This document shows positions 11,836 to 61,603 of a stretch of DNA of 64,000 nucleotides, piece after piece (the stretch's first letter is position 1; each line of letters starts with the position of its first letter). The notes under the pieces are model-generated. The model was not told where the DNA came from and made no database searches. It saw only the letters and a list, made by a program, of their open reading frames with translations. The translations under genes and the position numbers were made by a program. Source of the DNA: Acanthochlamys bracteata (lineage: Eukaryota > Streptophyta > Magnoliopsida > Pandanales > Velloziaceae); contig CM034127.1 of NCBI GenBank assembly GCA_019914995.1, forward strand, positions 4,092,001 to 4,156,000, given 5' to 3'.

Positions 11836-13576
11836 TGTGCAGAATCGCAATTTGGATTGTATTAGGCCTAAGATTTGCATATTGCTACAGGCGTACTGGG
11901 CTGGGCTTACTTAAGATGAACTGGGCATGCTATTGGGCTTTTAGGTGGACCATCATCATGTGGGCTTTGTGGAGGCTAGTATTATTACTCGATTAACTGC
12001 TTCTGTTCTCGATCACTCGCTCGACATGAAGCAGTAAAACAGAAAATGGCTATGTAGAGAACTATCAATTATGTTCAACTATCAGATTTGCTCGCGTAGT
12101 TTATTTTTATCTCTTCAAGAAATAAAAATTTACGCATATGTTTTACAATTTGTTATAAAGCTTTGATTTTTAAAGAGATCAGCAGCAATTCATAGGTGGG
12201 TGGCTCTCCAGTCTGTTAATTACCCAATAATCAATCCCTCAGAATTTAAGATGCAAGATAACAATTGCTCGTCTCAACCGTGCTGTACTATTACCATTGA
12301 CAACGTTTTTGTTACGACCTATTTATTTTCGGCCATGACTGAAATCAAACCAAGACAAACGTAACTGCTACGGATACTGAAAATTTCTTTCGTTTTACTT
12401 TAAAGTCGTTCGTGATAAATCTGTGCGTCACTGGTAAAAGAAACGAGGGAACACAGCAGCACGTAACATGAAGAGGCCCAGCTTTACAGAAAAGGTTAGA
12501 AACACGAGCCTAAGTTGCAGTTTAAGTAAAACAAATGACAACGGTCGCCTGCTTGGCTGCTTCAAATTTGTCGCTATGCATTTTACTTATCCAAACTGTT
12601 AATTAAACAACAAAGAGATAACACTGCTACTGTACATCTGACAAAACCTACCCCAAAAAAAAAAGAAATTGAAACTAGCATCAATCAATAGAAAACTAGG
12701 AAAAGAAATTTTGTAGAAAGATCTCCATTTTTTTTTTTTTTTTTGCATGTATAGTAATAGCTAAAAGGTGGAAAGAAGAGAGAGAGGGAGCGACCACAAT
12801 GTCTACAGCAAGGCGAAGCACAGTAGCTGTGGATAATAACTGTAATGAATGAAACAAATAATTTGCCAGCATAGAGTCACCATCACTAAAATCACTATAC
12901 GGCACTAATAAAAGCTACCCAATTATCAACCAAAATTCAAAGTTTGTACAGTGATGAAGACGAGAAAGATCAAAGCGATACAAGACTGCCTATGGCCCAA
13001 AGAAGACCCCAACTGGGTCCGACCCAAATCCGTGCCACTAAAAGTAAACTTTTAATCTCTTAATAGGAGGAGACGAAAGAAGGGAAGTAAAGAACTGAGA
13101 GCTGATGGTGGTGATGCAGGTCCTTATCTGGTAGCTGTCCTTGTGATCCGGCACGTTTACAGGAACTGTAGGACCCAAGCGGAAGCAGGCAAGCAGCAGA
13201 TAGAATCATCACCGCCACCAACAAAAGATAATGATTTAAAAGAAATTTTGGGAAGCATCAGAACAAAAGCCATGTTACCAACGGCTACTTAATTCCAGCA
13301 GAATCCTGTTCTTAATTTGTTTGGCGGGAAAGAAGATTATGAGCTCAAGATGTCGGGAACAGACTTCGAATATTGACCGGAGAAAAGAGGATTGAAAGCG
13401 AGCTTTGTCTGGATAAAGGGAATTCCCACTTGGAAACAAATAGAGATAGAAAACAAAAGAACGCATTTGATTAAGCTTAAAAGCTATAAACTAATGTTAT
13501 AGGATTCTGATAGTGGATCAGCTTGACGAATGATGGGGATGGACAAGGAAAGAAAAGAAAATTGGTATTGGTGGGG
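11836..13576. other. Spacer and probable 3' UTR of the LRR receptor kinase
   Basis: No coding exon was recognised. The part nearest 13577 (about 12,600-13,576) is likely the 3' untranslated region and terminator zone of the minus-strand receptor kinase. A T-run sits at about 12,729-12,744. Confidence 0.4.
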
Positions 13577-54164: not shown

Positions 54165-56061
54165 ATGGATGATAGTGGATGTAAGATGGATGATAGTGGA
54201 CAAATGGAGAGCGGGAGGCATAAGTCTGTTCATGCTCAGGTATTGAAGGCTAAATTGTGGTTGTTATTAGTTCTTCACAGTTCTTGCTTTAAGTTTCTTA
54301 TCTTTCGGCTGAAGTAGGGATCATAGTAAGAAAATGTGTCGGGTCTTACTTGCTAGCCGCATGCTTGGGCCTTGTTCACCAAATGTGTTGTACAACATTC
54401 TTGTCGAGAAAATATGGTATTTACTTTTGAAAATTAAAATTCCTTTTCATGCAAGGACATGCTGCTGCCATGTTAGTTTTCTATGCTCCGGAATAAATTG
54501 ATCTGAATAAACTGTTGCATGTTTTATATTCATGGGAAAGTTCTTTCACATGTCTGGTATTGGTAAAGACAATGAAATTCAGAGGAGAAACGCAGAAATG
54601 TACTCTTTTAGAGACAATGTGACTTGCTACCTTTGGCAGGGATGAATTTCTATTCTTTTTGTTAAACAAGCAAAGCTAAAATAGCAAAGAGCAAGAAACA
54701 TGAAATCTCTGCCTTCTTCAACTGTAACCTTACTTCTCTTTGAGGAAGGACACCTTTTTGTTGAGTCAAGGGTGTGGTTAGAGTTGTAAGAGCTTCAGTA
54801 TACCCTAATCTTAAATGAGGGTTCTAGAGCCTTGGACATAATACCTTACTATTTCTTTTCTCTTTAGATTTAAGAATTATCTTTGCTCTTAACTTTGACA
54901 TCATGGTATACCATGGCATCATAAGTTGACGTCCACACCCTAATTCACATTTGTGTTTCCTGTTGAGTTACAGTACTAAGCAACTAGGCCAATTTTTTGA
55001 ATTTGTTAACATATAAAACACTGCAATGGACTTTTGAAAATGTAATCGATTGCATCAGGTATATTCTATTGATTGACAGGAGCTACTTTCCTGCCAGCTT
55101 ATCATCCTTGCTTGGAGGTGACTGATCAGTTTTGATGGTCTTGCAGTGGATGATGCCTCAGCATCAGCTGAAAGACAACTACACGATGAAGCTCATGACC
55201 ATCATAGCTGAGCGAGATGCCGCAATTGAGGAGCGAAATAGATACATTGCGGAAAAGAAAGCTGCCTTGGCTGAGCGGGATAGGGCATATCTTCAGCGAG
55301 AAGCTGTAATGGCTGAATGGAACGGTGCTTTGTTACAGCGTGATGAGTTTCTTGCAGCCCTTGCCGATGATACTGGGATTAGTAACGGCAGCAATGGTTC
55401 CACATATACTCCTTTGTCCACATCCTCTCGAGGAGCAAAGCATATTTATCACCATCAGCAGCAGCAGCAACATATACACAGTTCTCAATGCCTGCCATCT
55501 CAGGATTCAGATGCATCATACAACAATTCAAGAGATATGCAAATAGGTGAGGCATTCCCCGTCTCAGCAGCTCATGAGAATGCACCAAAAGGTAGGCGTC
55601 GGAGATGTTCGAAGGATGGTAGAGCTGGGGAGGTTCCATTCAACAAGGCATCTGCACCTTCAAAGAAGAGCAAAAAGATTGCAGGTCAGGAAATGAAGCA
55701 GACAGTTGTGACAAAGAAAAATGAGTTGAAAGGTCAGGACCTAGGGCTCAACCAGGTAGCATATGATGATTCAACAATGCCTGCTCCAGGTTGTTCCTGT
55801 ACAGGAGTATTTCGTCAGTGCTACAAATGGGGACATGGTGGATGGCAATCTGCTTGTTGTACCATGATTTTGTCCATGTATCCACTGCCAGTCATGCCAA
55901 ACAAGCGTCATACGCGGGTTGGAGGCAGGAAGATGAGCGGGAGTGCTTTCAGCAAGTTGCTTAGTCGCTTGGCTGCAGAGGGCAATGATCTCTCTTTGCC
56001 GATAGACTTAAAGGAACACTGGGCCAAGCACGGGACCAACAGATATATAACTATCAAGTGA
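54165..56061 (+). CDS. BPC: BASIC PENTACYSTEINE (BBR/BPC) class II GAGA-binding factor
   Basis: Two exons (54165-54239 and 55147-56061) join in frame to 329 residues. The N-terminus MDDSG..GRHK is followed by a long alanine-zipper coiled coil (about residues 36-98) with repeated [17 protein letters not shown] heptads, typical of class II BPCs (Arabidopsis BPC4/5/6). The middle holds basic nuclear-localisation stretches ([14 protein letters not shown]). The C-terminal DNA-binding domain (about 226-329) has the five cysteines (CSC, QCYKWG, ACC) and ends [17 protein letters not shown] proteins bind GA-rich promoter repeats in the nucleus, regulate homeotic and hormone genes, and recruit Polycomb proteins. 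The splice removes a possible in-frame upstream ATG of exon 2; joining VHAQ to WMMPQHQ follows the family pattern. The start region carries an internal repeat (see findings), so translation could instead begin at the second MDDSG, 7 codons in. Confidence 0.93.
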
Positions 56062-57285: not shown

Positions 57286-57289
57286 AGAT

Positions 57290-57380
57290 GTGTCAGATTA
57301 ACAATTGTCAGCAACCCATACGAATGGATCAGACAGGGATAACTGTACTGAGGTTAAATTTCTCTTCACACACATCCACT
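57290..57380 (-). ncRNA. Box C/D snoRNA, second copy of the 25S ACAGGGAUAACUG guide (possibly decayed)
   Basis: The minus strand carries the guide CAGTTATCCCTGT (57345-57333) directly before a CTGA D' box (57332-57329), then GGGTTGCTGACAA and a terminal CTGA (57296-57293). This matches the copy at 57842-57954 from guide to D box. The C box position reads TGTGTGA (57372-57366) instead of RTGATGA, so this copy may be inactive or may use a non-standard C box. Confidence 0.5.
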
Positions 57381-57591
57381 CACATTCATAATTGAGAACC
57401 TAAGATCATGCCTTTAGGCATGGAACCAAGCTTTAGTTTTTTTTTTCATTACAGTATAAGTGAGCTTAGATAGAGGGAAAAAACAAAAAAAATAACTATG
57501 AAACACCGGAATCATGGATTTAAACTTCATAAACATTACATAAGAACAACATTGATGTACTTGACCATAAGATTGGTGTATGATTTAATTG

Positions 57592-57681
57592 CCAAGCATC
57601 CTCAGACCGTCCTAGTTCACGAATTTGTTTTCAGCACAAATTTGAATTTCAGTCACCTGATTGGTCATCATTGGTGCTTGC
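57592..57681 (-). ncRNA. Box C/D snoRNA with 18S rRNA guide
   Basis: The minus strand has a perfect C box ATGATGA (57671-57665) and a D box CTGA (57605-57602). The guide ACTAGGACGGT (57616-57606) abuts the D box and is complementary over 11 bases to ACCGUCCUAGU of plant 18S rRNA. Flanks GCAAGCACC and GGATGCTTG pair as a terminal stem with one bulge. By the D+5 rule the predicted 2'-O-methylation falls on the U of ACCGU. A possible D' box CTGA follows ~20 bases after the C box, with no clear target. Confidence 0.8.
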
Positions 57682-57841
57682 AATACCTTCACTAACAACT
57701 ACCAATTTAATCTATGTATTCAATTCAAATAATCTTAAAATCAAGCACCATAGCTATCCCAAATTCTCCTAAACAAGCATGCAAACCCAAAACCAAAATA
57801 GAATGAGCAAAATTTCAGGCATCCAATCATCAAAAAGTTCT

Positions 57842-57954
57842 AGGAAGAGACGTATCAGATTCACAATTTGTCAGCAACCCATGATGATGGATCAGACAGG
57901 GATAACTGTATAAAAATGTGTTTCTCATCATCCACAACTCGTAAAAGTCTTCCT
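57842..57954 (-). ncRNA. Box C/D snoRNA guiding 25S rRNA at ACAGGGAUAACUG
   Basis: The minus strand has C box ATGATGA (57931-57925), guide CAGTTATCCCTGT (57908-57896) and D' box CTGA (57895-57892). The terminal D box is CTGA (57858-57855), with an external stem AGGAAGA/TCTTCCT (57954-57948 with 57848-57842). The guide is a 13-base perfect complement to the conserved 25S segment ACAGGGAUAACUG in domain V. The D'+5 rule points to the second G of GGG. This resembles the yeast snR38-type modification, from memory. Confidence 0.85.
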
Positions 57955-58042
57955 TAATGAAAAACAAAAAAGATAACACAAACAAAAGAAACAAGAAACA
58001 ATCTTACTTTTTTTTTCGTTTTTTCTTGGGGCAGGGATAATC

Positions 58043-58140
58043 AATCTATCAGATCTTCCTATTCAAAATCAAGCAGCTATCAAAGCATTTGAGCTATCAA
58101 TCAAATGCATCTGTTGCAGATGAAACTCATCAGCTAGATT
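58043..58140 (-). ncRNA. Box C/D snoRNA with 25S rRNA guide
   Basis: The minus strand reads AATCTA, G, then C-box core CTGATGA (58133-58127), and ends with D box CTGA (58052-58049) followed at once by TAGATT. The ends form a perfect 6 bp terminal stem, AATCTA with TAGATT. The guide before the D box (ATAGGAAGA) is complementary over 9 bases to UCUUCCUAU of 25S rRNA, just after GAUGUCGGC in domain V, with one unpaired base next to the box. The predicted methylated base is a U of that segment. The C box has C rather than a purine at its first position. Confidence 0.72.
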
Positions 58141-58272
58141 TCACCCTGCTGCAATAAATCCTCACATCAAACTAAGAACGAGAAAAACAAAACAAAACAC
58201 CGAAAACAAAAAGAAATCTTTGCACCGAAACTAGAACAGAGCTCTCTCAGAGATGTTCTACAGGGTAGAACC

Positions 58273-58387
58273 TATATATATAAGCCGCCACGTTTCAGAA
58301 CTAGATTAGGGTTTCATAAAATAGCGATATTAATAGTGGCCCAATTTGAAGTTACTTGGCCCATTAGCTTCTATACAATCAGGCCCA
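58273..58387 (-). promoter_or_regulatory. snoRNA-cluster promoter: TATA, telo-box and three site II elements
   Basis: On the minus strand, going upstream from the snoRNAs, there is a TATA tract (58283-58273), a telo-box AAACCCTAA (58314-58306), and three TGGGCC site II words (58343-58338, 58363-58358 and 58387-58382). Telo-box plus site II is the known signature of plant ribosomal-protein, translation and snoRNA gene promoters. The DHDPS gene starts in the opposite direction at 58510, so the region is probably bidirectional. Confidence 0.75.
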
Positions 58388-58509
58388 ATATTAGACTAGG
58401 AAATCTTCGAAGCAGCTCTTCAGTCCTGAGTGTTCTTCCTCCGATCGCCGACGATTGAATTGAAACAGTTTGAATTCTTCTTCAGAAATTATATAAAGAT
58501 TTGAAGAGA

Positions 58510-61500
58510 ATGCAATCGGCGGTGGTGATGAAGAGGTCTTTGAGCTTTAGTGATGCTTCTGCGATTACATGGCTAAGGCAGCTGCCATCTCCCTGTACCA
58601 CTCATCTCAGGTCTGCTCTAAATTTTCGGTCTTTTTCTTCTAAAATTGAATATTCTCTTAAAATTTTATTGATTTGAAGGCCTAGATGTAAATGGAAACT
58701 AAAAGGAAGAATCTTGGTGTATGTTTATGGTATTTTTGGTATAACTTCATCACTAAATTTGGCGTAAAGAGAAAGTGATTGCTACTGGAAGGTTTACAAT
58801 GTGCAACAAATATGGGATTCCTAATAAGAGCTTTGATTATATGATCTTTGGTTCTATTTGTTTGATAAATCTGGACTTAACCTGTGCTTGGGGTATTTAG
58901 CTCCTGGGAGTATTAAGCTTAGGCATGTAGGTTGCGGTAAGTCGTATTTAGAGGAAAATGCAGGATGCAACTGATTTCAGGTTGAACTTGTGCTGAATTG
59001 GTATAGTAAAGCTATAGATTGCGTGTAAAGAAATCCGATAAGATTCAGACTGGGATTGTTTTGATCTCATCCCTCTTCATGCAAGTACAAATTCAAGTAG
59101 GAGATTCAATAAGATCTGTTGGAGTTAGTAGTGAGTTGGTTTAGGGCCCTTGTTGAGTAGAGATAAGAAGAGAATTGATATGTATAGTAGAGATTGCCTC
59201 TATCATTTGCTTAAACTTTTGGATTGGGTTGAGCTATTTGTTACATGGGGCCCCGTGACTGTATCGCAAATGAACCATTGGTTTTGATATTATTTGCTGG
59301 GTTCTGATATCAAAATCTCTACTCATTTTATTGTCTTCTTTAATTTTCTTTGAGAAAGCTTATTTCAAACTTTGAAAATTGTTTTTTAAAGATAGAAGGA
59401 ATTTCAAATTTAAATGTTCTTTCTTTGATCTTGGGAGCTACTTTAATCTCTGTATCAGTTTATTTCTTAGACCTTAGTGTTTGGCATGCTGCATGTTTGA
59501 TCCTGTGTACTGCATCATTTTGCCCATGCTCTTTACTACTGGTTGACAAATTAATTTAGTTTAATATATATACAGGTCTAATGTGCCACCATAAAAACAT
59601 GTGGAGAAAATTTGCATTGCAATAGGTCCTATAATTGTGAGACACGCTATTTGGCTATGATGCAACATGCAATCTAAAGCAAATCTCACCATAGTGGCTT
59701 GACTATTTGTAACTAGTTGTTACCCTTTAGTTTTTACATCTCCAAGAATGATTCTTCTTGATACTTGTATGTCCAGGCTAGGAAGGTGGAGATCTCCTAA
59801 AGCAGCTGTTGTCCCAAATCTTCATCTTCCTATGCAGAGCCTAGAAATCAAGAAGAGGTTATCTACGTACCTCAAGAGTTTATTAGGTTTCCTGTTGTTA
59901 CTGCAAAGAGTCCGTCTAGTATATTTGTGTTTCTATTTGGTTCTGACATTCTTTACAATCTTCATTGTCGGACAATTGAACTTGGTTTTGTAGATCAATG
60001 TCCTGTGATCATGCCCTTCTGCTTAATTAGAGATTAAGCCCTAAAAAATGACTTTGTTCCCCTATGATATGTTTGCTAGCAATTCTACTGTCTTTCCTAG
60101 TATATAATTTTTCTAAAATCCATTTTCAATTAGCTCATATGAAGTAATCAGCCCATGTTTGTGTCTACATGTTTTTGTAAGAGACAGTGAAGAAAAAGCA
60201 ACTATATTTTCTTTTTCAGTTCTTTCTCTAGTTATTCTGTTGTACGAGTGAAATAGCTGGACTTCATCTTTGACTCGAAGCTTTGTTTAGTTAAAGTTGA
60301 AGTACTGACTGCTAAGGCATGTTTGTTCCTGATCACAAGCTCGAGTCTTAAGTTAATCTTTGGACTTCCATTGATCATTCAAATGTTAGCTTTTAGTTGT
60401 AATAGTAGGCGTCACATATAAATTTTACAAGTCAGTGCGAGTCCATATCCTCTTGGTTTCGAAGTTGCAAAATGTTTGTTTACTACTAAAGTGTAGACGA
60501 TTATCTAGTGAACTGCTGAAGTGAGTTTCATGTGAATGAAGAATTTGTTGGATTGGTATTTTTAACTTTTTAATGATTACATAGGTTTTAGTGGGAATTT
60601 AGCAAATAGTTCCGCTGCTTACAATCGTCGCTCTTTTACTATCTTCGCTTTTCTGTTGATCTTTTTACCATACAGGTTATCAGTGGAGGAAATAAAAGGC
60701 CTTAGGCTAATTACAGCCATAAAGACCCCATACCTACCTGACGGAAAGTTTGATCTTGATGCTTACGATTCTCTAATGCACATGCAGATTAACAGTGGCG
60801 CTGAAGGTGTAATTGTTGGAGGAACTACTGGAGAAGGCCATCTTATGAGTTGGGATGAACATATCATGCTTATTGCTCATACAGTTTATTTGTTTGGTAA
60901 ATCGATAAAAGTGATAGGGAACACTGGTAGCAACTCAACAAGGGAGGCAAGCCATGCTTCAGAACAGGGTTTTGTTGTGGGCATGCATGCAGCTCTTCAT
61001 ATCAATCCTTACTATGGGAAGACATCTTCAGAAGGGCTAGTTACGCATTTCGAGACTGTCCTTTCCATGGGCCCTACTATTATCTACAATGTTCCATCCA
61101 GGACAGGACAGGATATTTGTCCTGCTGTCATCCATGAGGTATCAAAAAATTCTAACATGGTAGGTGTGAAGGAGTGCATGGGAAATAAAAGAATCAAGGA
61201 GTACACTGACAAAGGTATAACCATATGGAGCGGGAATGACGATGAGTGTCATGATTCTAGATGGACATGTGGTGCAACTGGAGTAATATCTGTTGCTAGC
61301 AACCTTGTTCCAGGCTTGATGCACACACTTATGTTCCAAGGGAAGAATCCATCTTTAACCTCCAAGTTGATGCCGCTGATTGATTGGCTGTTCCATGAGC
61401 CAAATCCAATAGCTCTTAACACAGCCCTCGCACAATTGGGTGCAGTGAGGCCAGTGTTCAGGCTGCCATATGTTCCTCTTTCCCTTGCTAAGAGAAAGGA

Positions 61501-61603
61501 ATTTGTTTGCATAGTGGAAAACATCGGAAGGGAGAATTTTGTTGGTGAAAAGGATGTGCAGGTTCTAGATGATGACGACTTCATACTAGTTGGCCGCTAC
61601 TAG
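58510..61603 (+). CDS. DHDPS: 4-hydroxy-tetrahydrodipicolinate synthase, chloroplastic
   Basis: Three exons (58510-58610, 59777-59857 and 60676-61603) join in frame to 369 residues. The first ~50 residues, Ser/Arg-rich and poor in acid, form a chloroplast transit peptide. The rest is a TIM-barrel DapA-family enzyme. Catalytic features visible are GGTTGEG (109-115, with T111/T112), Y198 in [11 protein letters not shown]203, and the Schiff-base lysine K226 in VGVKECMG. Residues of the plant lysine-feedback site lie in LMSWDEH and [11 protein letters not shown]. The enzyme condenses pyruvate with aspartate semialdehyde, the first committed step of lysine synthesis, and is inhibited by lysine; it works as a homotetramer. 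[12 protein letters not shown] and the exon layout match plant DHDPS. The ATG is the first in a leader that lies just downstream of the shared promoter. The third-exon frame extends upstream of the splice site, but homology places the junction at [11 protein letters not shown]. Confidence 0.95.

Follow-up and report, generated by a model that had tools for sequence, protein, structure and literature searches.

What a stretch of about 850 bp on the minus strand encodes in Acanthochlamys bracteata was the question raised by a first-pass annotation, which read in it four units with C and D boxes. The window, the whole 64-kb stretch of DNA analyzed (C2:4092001-4156000), belongs to a genome of 195.5 Mb in 557 contigs. 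Reading of the sequence and the positions of the boxes bore out the four units: the locus is genuine, and it is an unremarkable box C/D snoRNA polycistron of the plant type, made up of gene kinds already known from Arabidopsis, ordered snoR64-like, snoR38, snoR20-like, and snoR38 along the minus strand (Table 1). The borders of the region originally delimited (57290..58140) were too narrow, as the cluster with its outer stem extends past both ends and the promoter lies outside.

The cluster is located between genes for a GAGA-binding protein and a dihydrodipicolinate synthase, on the strand opposite to both, and these two genes were the ones with matches among the five ORFs submitted to Pfam. 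The GAGA-binding family is known only from plants. A protein gene on the strand of the cluster was rejected, the only minus-strand ORF of at least 50 aa listed between 56118 and 61141 having a length of 54 aa, and a tRNA-snoRNA dicistron was rejected because ARAGORN (bacterial code) detected no tRNA anywhere in the window.

Table 1. Features of the snoRNA cluster, its neighbors, and the C1 counterpart of unit 2 (positions refer to the window unless a contig is named).
Feature	Position	Strand	Assignment
snoRNA cluster, including outer stem	58149-57286	minus	four box C/D units
Putative Pol II promoter	58273..58387	minus	site II, telo box, TATA elements
Unit 1, snoR64-like, with outer stem	58031..58149	minus	RF01163, below gathering; predicted target 25S U2884 (Arabidopsis numbering)
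Unit 2, snoR38	57848..57939	minus	RF00213, 58.1 bits; predicted target 25S G2816
Unit 3, snoR20-like	57590..57682	minus	RF01193, below gathering; predicted target 18S U1013
Unit 4, second snoR38	57286..57377	minus	RF00213, 56.8 bits
ORF, cluster neighbor	55132-56061	plus	GAGA-binding family PF06217, 1.2e-94 (Pfam)
ORF, cluster neighbor	60656-61603	plus	dihydrodipicolinate synthase PF00701, 2.9e-89 (Pfam)
C1 counterpart of unit 2	C1:4051133-4051225		snoR38, 48.7 bits, above gathering

Architecture and family assignment of the four units

The C box agreed exactly with RUGAUGA in units 2 (57931-57925) and 3 (57671-57665) and differed from it at a single base in each of units 1 and 4, where a C instead of R stands ahead of the TGATGA core (58132-58127) and the box reads GTGAAGA (57369-57363), respectively. 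The terminal D box was CTGA in all four units (58052-58049, 57858-57855, 57605-57602, and 57296-57293 for units 1 to 4) and a D' box CTGA was identified in units 2 (57895-57892), 3, and 4 (57332-57329), with no clear D' box located within unit 1. Guides of 9-13 bases at D or D' had been described at first pass, and the lengths complementary to rRNA were 13, 13, 11, and 9 nt: units 2 and 4 share the identical 13-nt guide CAGTTATCCCTGT adjoining D' (57908-57896 and 57345-57333), unit 3 carries ACTAGGACGGT adjoining D (57616-57606), and the 9-mer of unit 1, ATAGGAAGA (58062-58054), is one base away from D. The terminal or external stems claimed for three units were likewise recovered from duplex energies, which were strong in units 1, 3, and 4 (-15.1, -13.4, and -11.6 kcal/mol); the duplex of unit 2 was weak, at -5.0 kcal/mol. 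The pairs are AATCTA/TAGATT (terminal) and GCAGGG/CCCTGC (outer) in unit 1, CAAGCACC/GGaTGCTTG in unit 3, and GATGTG/CACATC (terminal) in unit 4. The D guides of the two snoR38 copies of the window had no exact rRNA match of at least 7 nt. Unit 1 also contains TTTCATCTGCAACAGATG (58125-58108, minus strand), which is identical in a duplicate of the cluster on contig C1 and, by eye, could form a small hairpin; as a second guide it had no exact complement of at least 9 nt in the rRNA pieces scanned.

Covariance-model search of the 64-kb window placed both snoR38 copies above the gathering threshold of 45 bits, with E-values of 3.1e-7 (unit 2) and 6.1e-7 (unit 4), and these were the only gathering-level Rfam matches in it. 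When 2 kb were searched permissively (20 matches listed), the best family by bits was snoR20a (RF01193) for unit 3 (36.6 bits, E 0.0011, gathering 42) and snoR64a (RF01163) for unit 1 (28.9 bits, E 0.041, gathering 45), both below threshold, and the guide and D box of each of these units equaled the family consensus unchanged. The Rfam score of unit 1 alone is no better than chance because sR17 (E 0.0028) and K10_TLS (E 0.028) had better E-values in the same list. The matches to sR17 and snoZ223, plus-strand hits at the stretch of a 58-aa ORF, and to K10_TLS, on the promoter, were below threshold and were taken as chance.

The earlier assignment to three rRNA-guide families, two acting on domain V of 25S and one on 18S, agreed with these Rfam results, the conserved duplicate, and the Arabidopsis methylation table described below. 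Its remark that a standard annotation would leave the region blank held in part: both snoR38 copies are reported at Rfam thresholds, and the snoR20-like and snoR64-like units would be missed by a threshold-only annotation since both score below gathering despite their consensus guide and D box. Of 62 candidates scored across the genome, four passed the snoR38 threshold, namely the pair in this cluster and a pair on C1. Units 3 and 1, used as DNA queries, each hit two places, the window and C1, such copy counts being lower bounds for large families. In whole-genome Rfam searches neither the snoR20a nor the snoR64a model had a match at E <= 0.001, which does not in itself show absence.

Arabidopsis snoRNA clusters were reportedly described in 2001 by Brown and by Qu. 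Excerpted text of published accounts (PMC4660826, PMC3022908, PMC8053127, PMC6461891, PMC2780460, PMC5122169, PMC7464842) did not contain the order snoR64-snoR38-snoR20-snoR38, and newness is not claimed. Arabidopsis SnoR38Y (RF00213) matches units 2 and 4 in its 13-nt D' guide, in box layout, and in length, and excerpts of one study give its LSU target as common to human SNORD1 (PMC6461891). The yeast counterpart is snR38, and the present cluster differs from SnoR38Y in holding two copies and in the GTGAAGA C box of unit 4. The GAACUAGGACGGUCUGAGG end of Arabidopsis SnoR20.1 (RF01193) is identical in unit 3, with the same predicted target at 18S U1013, although unit 3 is about 13 nt shorter than the snoR20a model in addition to its lower score. 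The AUAGGAAGAUCUGAU end of Arabidopsis SnoR64 (RF01163) is identical in unit 1, again with the same predicted target at 25S U2884, whereas the unit has diverged outside this end.

Predicted rRNA targets

Guided 2'-O-methylation by box C/D snoRNAs involves the C/D core proteins and fibrillarin and follows the D+5 rule. Applied to the cluster, the rule puts the methyl group on the U of ACCGU in 18S and on the G of ACAGG and the U of CUCUU in 25S. By analogy, the predicted bases are equated tentatively with Arabidopsis 18S U1013, 25S G2816, and 25S U2884 from the family names and from the distance between the two in 25S, which lie 68 nt apart, equal to 2884 minus 2816, on a provisional 195-nt reference piece of 25S that is also the basis of the snoR38 guide match. 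The table of Arabidopsis RiboMeth-seq sites attributes these positions to SnoR20.1, SnoR38Y, and SnoR64, respectively (PMC8053127), and the SnoR38Y target is numbered G2805 instead of G2816 in the excerpted PMC6461891.

Comparison with the rRNA of the species itself upheld the proposed guides in part, with exact matches for snoR20 on 18S and snoR64 on 25S and a partial one for snoR38 on an indel-rich 25S copy. The 18S target of the snoR20 guide was exact in three of three own 18S copies found, each confirmed as 18S by Rfam (868-1008 bits), a count that signifies presence and not an unbiased survey because the search pattern contained the target. No match in the genome was obtained with a pattern that combined the two 25S targets. 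The provisional 195-nt piece had 25 genome matches, among which that on contig C498 was the best and alone spanned both sites (84%, with many indels); the other matches include seven of 69-86%, mostly on short contigs, beyond those inspected. The snoR64 target was exact in the C498 copy, which at the snoR38 target reads ACAGGGAT and departs thereafter, a departure tentatively attributed to poor rDNA assembly and not to absence of the target. The two 13-mers were matched solely on the provisional 25S piece, the own 25S being indel-rich there.

Two further observations concern rRNA sequences in the assembly. On the rDNA contigs C199, C279, C383, and C498, the 18S genes of C199 and C383 and the 25S of C498 adjoin large N blocks. 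A dispersed repeat containing an approximately 100-nt piece of 25S rRNA was identified on contigs C9, C17, C13, C20, C5, and C7: 14 of the 25 matches to the 25S piece begin at query base 94 or 95, among them one that adjoins an N block and resembles near-intact rDNA. Five repeat copies are like a sixth over ~340 to 1650 bases around and beyond the 25S piece, and the reference copy scored 64 bits against the LSU rRNA model. It is possibly a mobile or satellite repeat with captured rDNA.

The duplicated block on C1

One other place was found for the 851-bp stretch in the whole genome, C1:4050603-4051384 (71% identity), where all four units are present in the same order and the duplicated block also retains the stretch of the GAGA-binding gene (82.5%). 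With gaps counted, identity between the window and C1 was 88, 77, 87, and 90% for units 1 to 4 compared to 44, 53, and 58% for the spacers. The leader reached 59% and the promoter stretch 64%, and the flanks were at 50% (downstream) and 41% (upstream). When gap columns were excluded, the units gave 88, 79, 90, and 91% and the spacers 75, 61, and 66%, so that the spacer between units 1 and 2 came close to unit 2. Overall, these values are as expected under selection on the mature RNAs, probably relaxed on the C1 copy of unit 2. The guides of units 3 and 4 were identical in C1 (13/13 for unit 4), and the C1 guide of unit 1 had a single change, A to G opposite U, keeping a wobble pair and taking the exact match down to 8 nt. 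The C1 copies of the snoR20-like (35.8 bits) and snoR64-like (20.3 bits, E 2.4) units were both below gathering, and the flanking stem of unit 4 is weak there (-3.9 kcal/mol).

The C1 counterpart of unit 2 retains its C and D boxes and a flanking stem of -10.6 kcal/mol, and its guide for 25S G2816 has decayed, reading CAGTTAGTCCTAT compared to CAGTTATCCCTGT in the window, with a D' box of CTTA. The sequence AATTTGTTCAT at its D box pairs exactly over 11 nt with ATGAACAAATT in all three own 18S copies, with a predicted methylation site near own 18S A69 (own count), the fifth base of AUGAACAAAUU. This position is absent from the 111 Arabidopsis methylation sites of the table (PMC8053127). When the D guides of all four snoR38 genes were shuffled, 18 of 5000 trials yielded a match of at least 11 nt in 2832 nt of rRNA text, the true odds being weaker because the match was selected post hoc, up to 16 guide positions were available, and the rRNA was searched in part; 11-mer rRNA matches also arise by chance in the window, which bears on this one. 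As judged from sequence, a snoRNA whose target changed from 25S to 18S after the block duplication would be an improbable outcome, and plain decay of a redundant copy is likelier.

Promoter and alternative readings of the cluster

Ahead of unit 1, three site II motifs TGGGCC (58387-58382, 58363-58358, and 58343-58338), a telo box AAACCCTAA (58313-58305), and TATATATATA (58282-58273) were identified, the TATA box lying ~120 bp upstream of the unit. The combination of telo box, site II, and TATA is given as a signature of plant snoRNA polycistrons in excerpts of two studies, in which the same telo box, TGGGCC, and TATA precede tandem snoRNAs (PMC4660826, PMC3022908), and the combination is present upstream of this cluster. 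Telo boxes had 10 hits at six places in the window, and three site II motifs within 200 bp of one occurred at the cluster promoter only, compared to 5 of 100 windows of a first-order simulation containing such a place somewhere. C1 retains two of the three site II motifs, the telo box, and the TATA box.

A 58-aa ORF without a Pfam match (58501-58677, plus strand) begins ~220 bp from the TATA box of the cluster, in a stretch (58401-58800) only 41% alike to C1, and may be the first exon of a divergent gene having its promoter region in common with the cluster. Elsewhere in the window, four site II motifs in 70 bp (11897-11966), with no telo box nearby, may mark another promoter.

Short C and D boxes might come together by chance with rRNA-like 9-13-mers, and the surroundings of all 501 CTGA of the window (225 and 276 on the two strands) were compared with a set of two 18S copies, a partial 25S, and the provisional 195-nt piece. 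Only the D' boxes of the two snoR38 units had exact rRNA complements of at least 12 nt, abutting or one base from CTGA, and these lay on the provisional piece. Complements of 9-11 nt occurred next to CTGA elsewhere in the window too, two 11-mers being outside the cluster, and a bare motif scan that asked for an exact C box together with CTGA and at least 4 stem pairs returned seven places, two in the cluster (units 2 and 3) and five outside, both of which speak for a chance assembly. Motif and length alone are weak proof, and family match, conservation, and known target therefore carry the case; the 11-nt snoR20 and 9-nt snoR64 guides rest on these three because such lengths recur elsewhere. 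Among the 91 CTGA of the C1 locus, the 13-nt snoR38 guide of unit 4 and the 11-nt snoR20 guide appeared again, with a few 9-10-mers outside the units. The covariance-model scores, the conservation of four units in order on C1, and the fall of the three predicted bases on mapped methylation sites refute a chance origin, whose probability is vanishingly small.

Readings that accept the units and dispute their state or setting were also weighed. The cluster might consist partly of relics that keep boxes and guides, with one snoR38 or the snoR64-like unit giving no stable RNA, as suggested by the departures of the C boxes of units 1 and 4 from RUGAUGA, by the weakest flanking stem of the window in unit 2, and by the decayed 25S guide and D' box of unit 2 on C1, from which it follows that copies do decay. 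This is rather unlikely given that all three guide types are intact within the window, that the guides of units 3 and 4 are unchanged on C1, and that the single change in unit 1 there keeps the wobble pair and 8 nt of exact match. Units lying in the introns of a host gene, and not in an independent polycistron, would fit the 3' splice-site-like TTATTGCAG directly ahead of unit 1 and the frequency of intronic snoRNA genes in rice, such genes being the exception in Arabidopsis according to the same excerpted source (PMC3022908). The sole minus-strand ORF long enough to be listed around the cluster (54 aa) overlaps unit 2, the two neighboring genes with Pfam matches are both on the plus strand, and a TATA box stands shortly upstream of unit 1, all of which make a host gene very improbable. 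A plant polycistronic box C/D snoRNA gene is almost certainly the best account of the cluster.

Observed in this genome were the boxes with their guides and stems, the motifs of the promoter, the matches to known families, the conserved duplicate, and the 18S target in the own rRNA. We infer how the locus would be expressed and would act in this species, from transcription and processing to the assembly of RNPs and methylation: RNA polymerase II would start directly 3' of the site II/telo-box/TATA promoter, near 58250, and transcribe the minus strand as far as ~57280 or further. The precursor would be cleaved into the four snoRNAs (snoR64-like, snoR38, snoR20-like, and snoR38), each of which would bind C/D core proteins, and fibrillarin guided by them would carry out 2'-O-methylation at 25S U2884, 25S G2816, and 18S U1013, in each case on the predicted partner of the nucleotide five positions upstream of D or D'. 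The A. bracteata genome gains one snoRNA polycistron with this locus, and the pair of clusters from duplication offers a small natural experiment in which redundant guide RNAs may be decaying or switching target.
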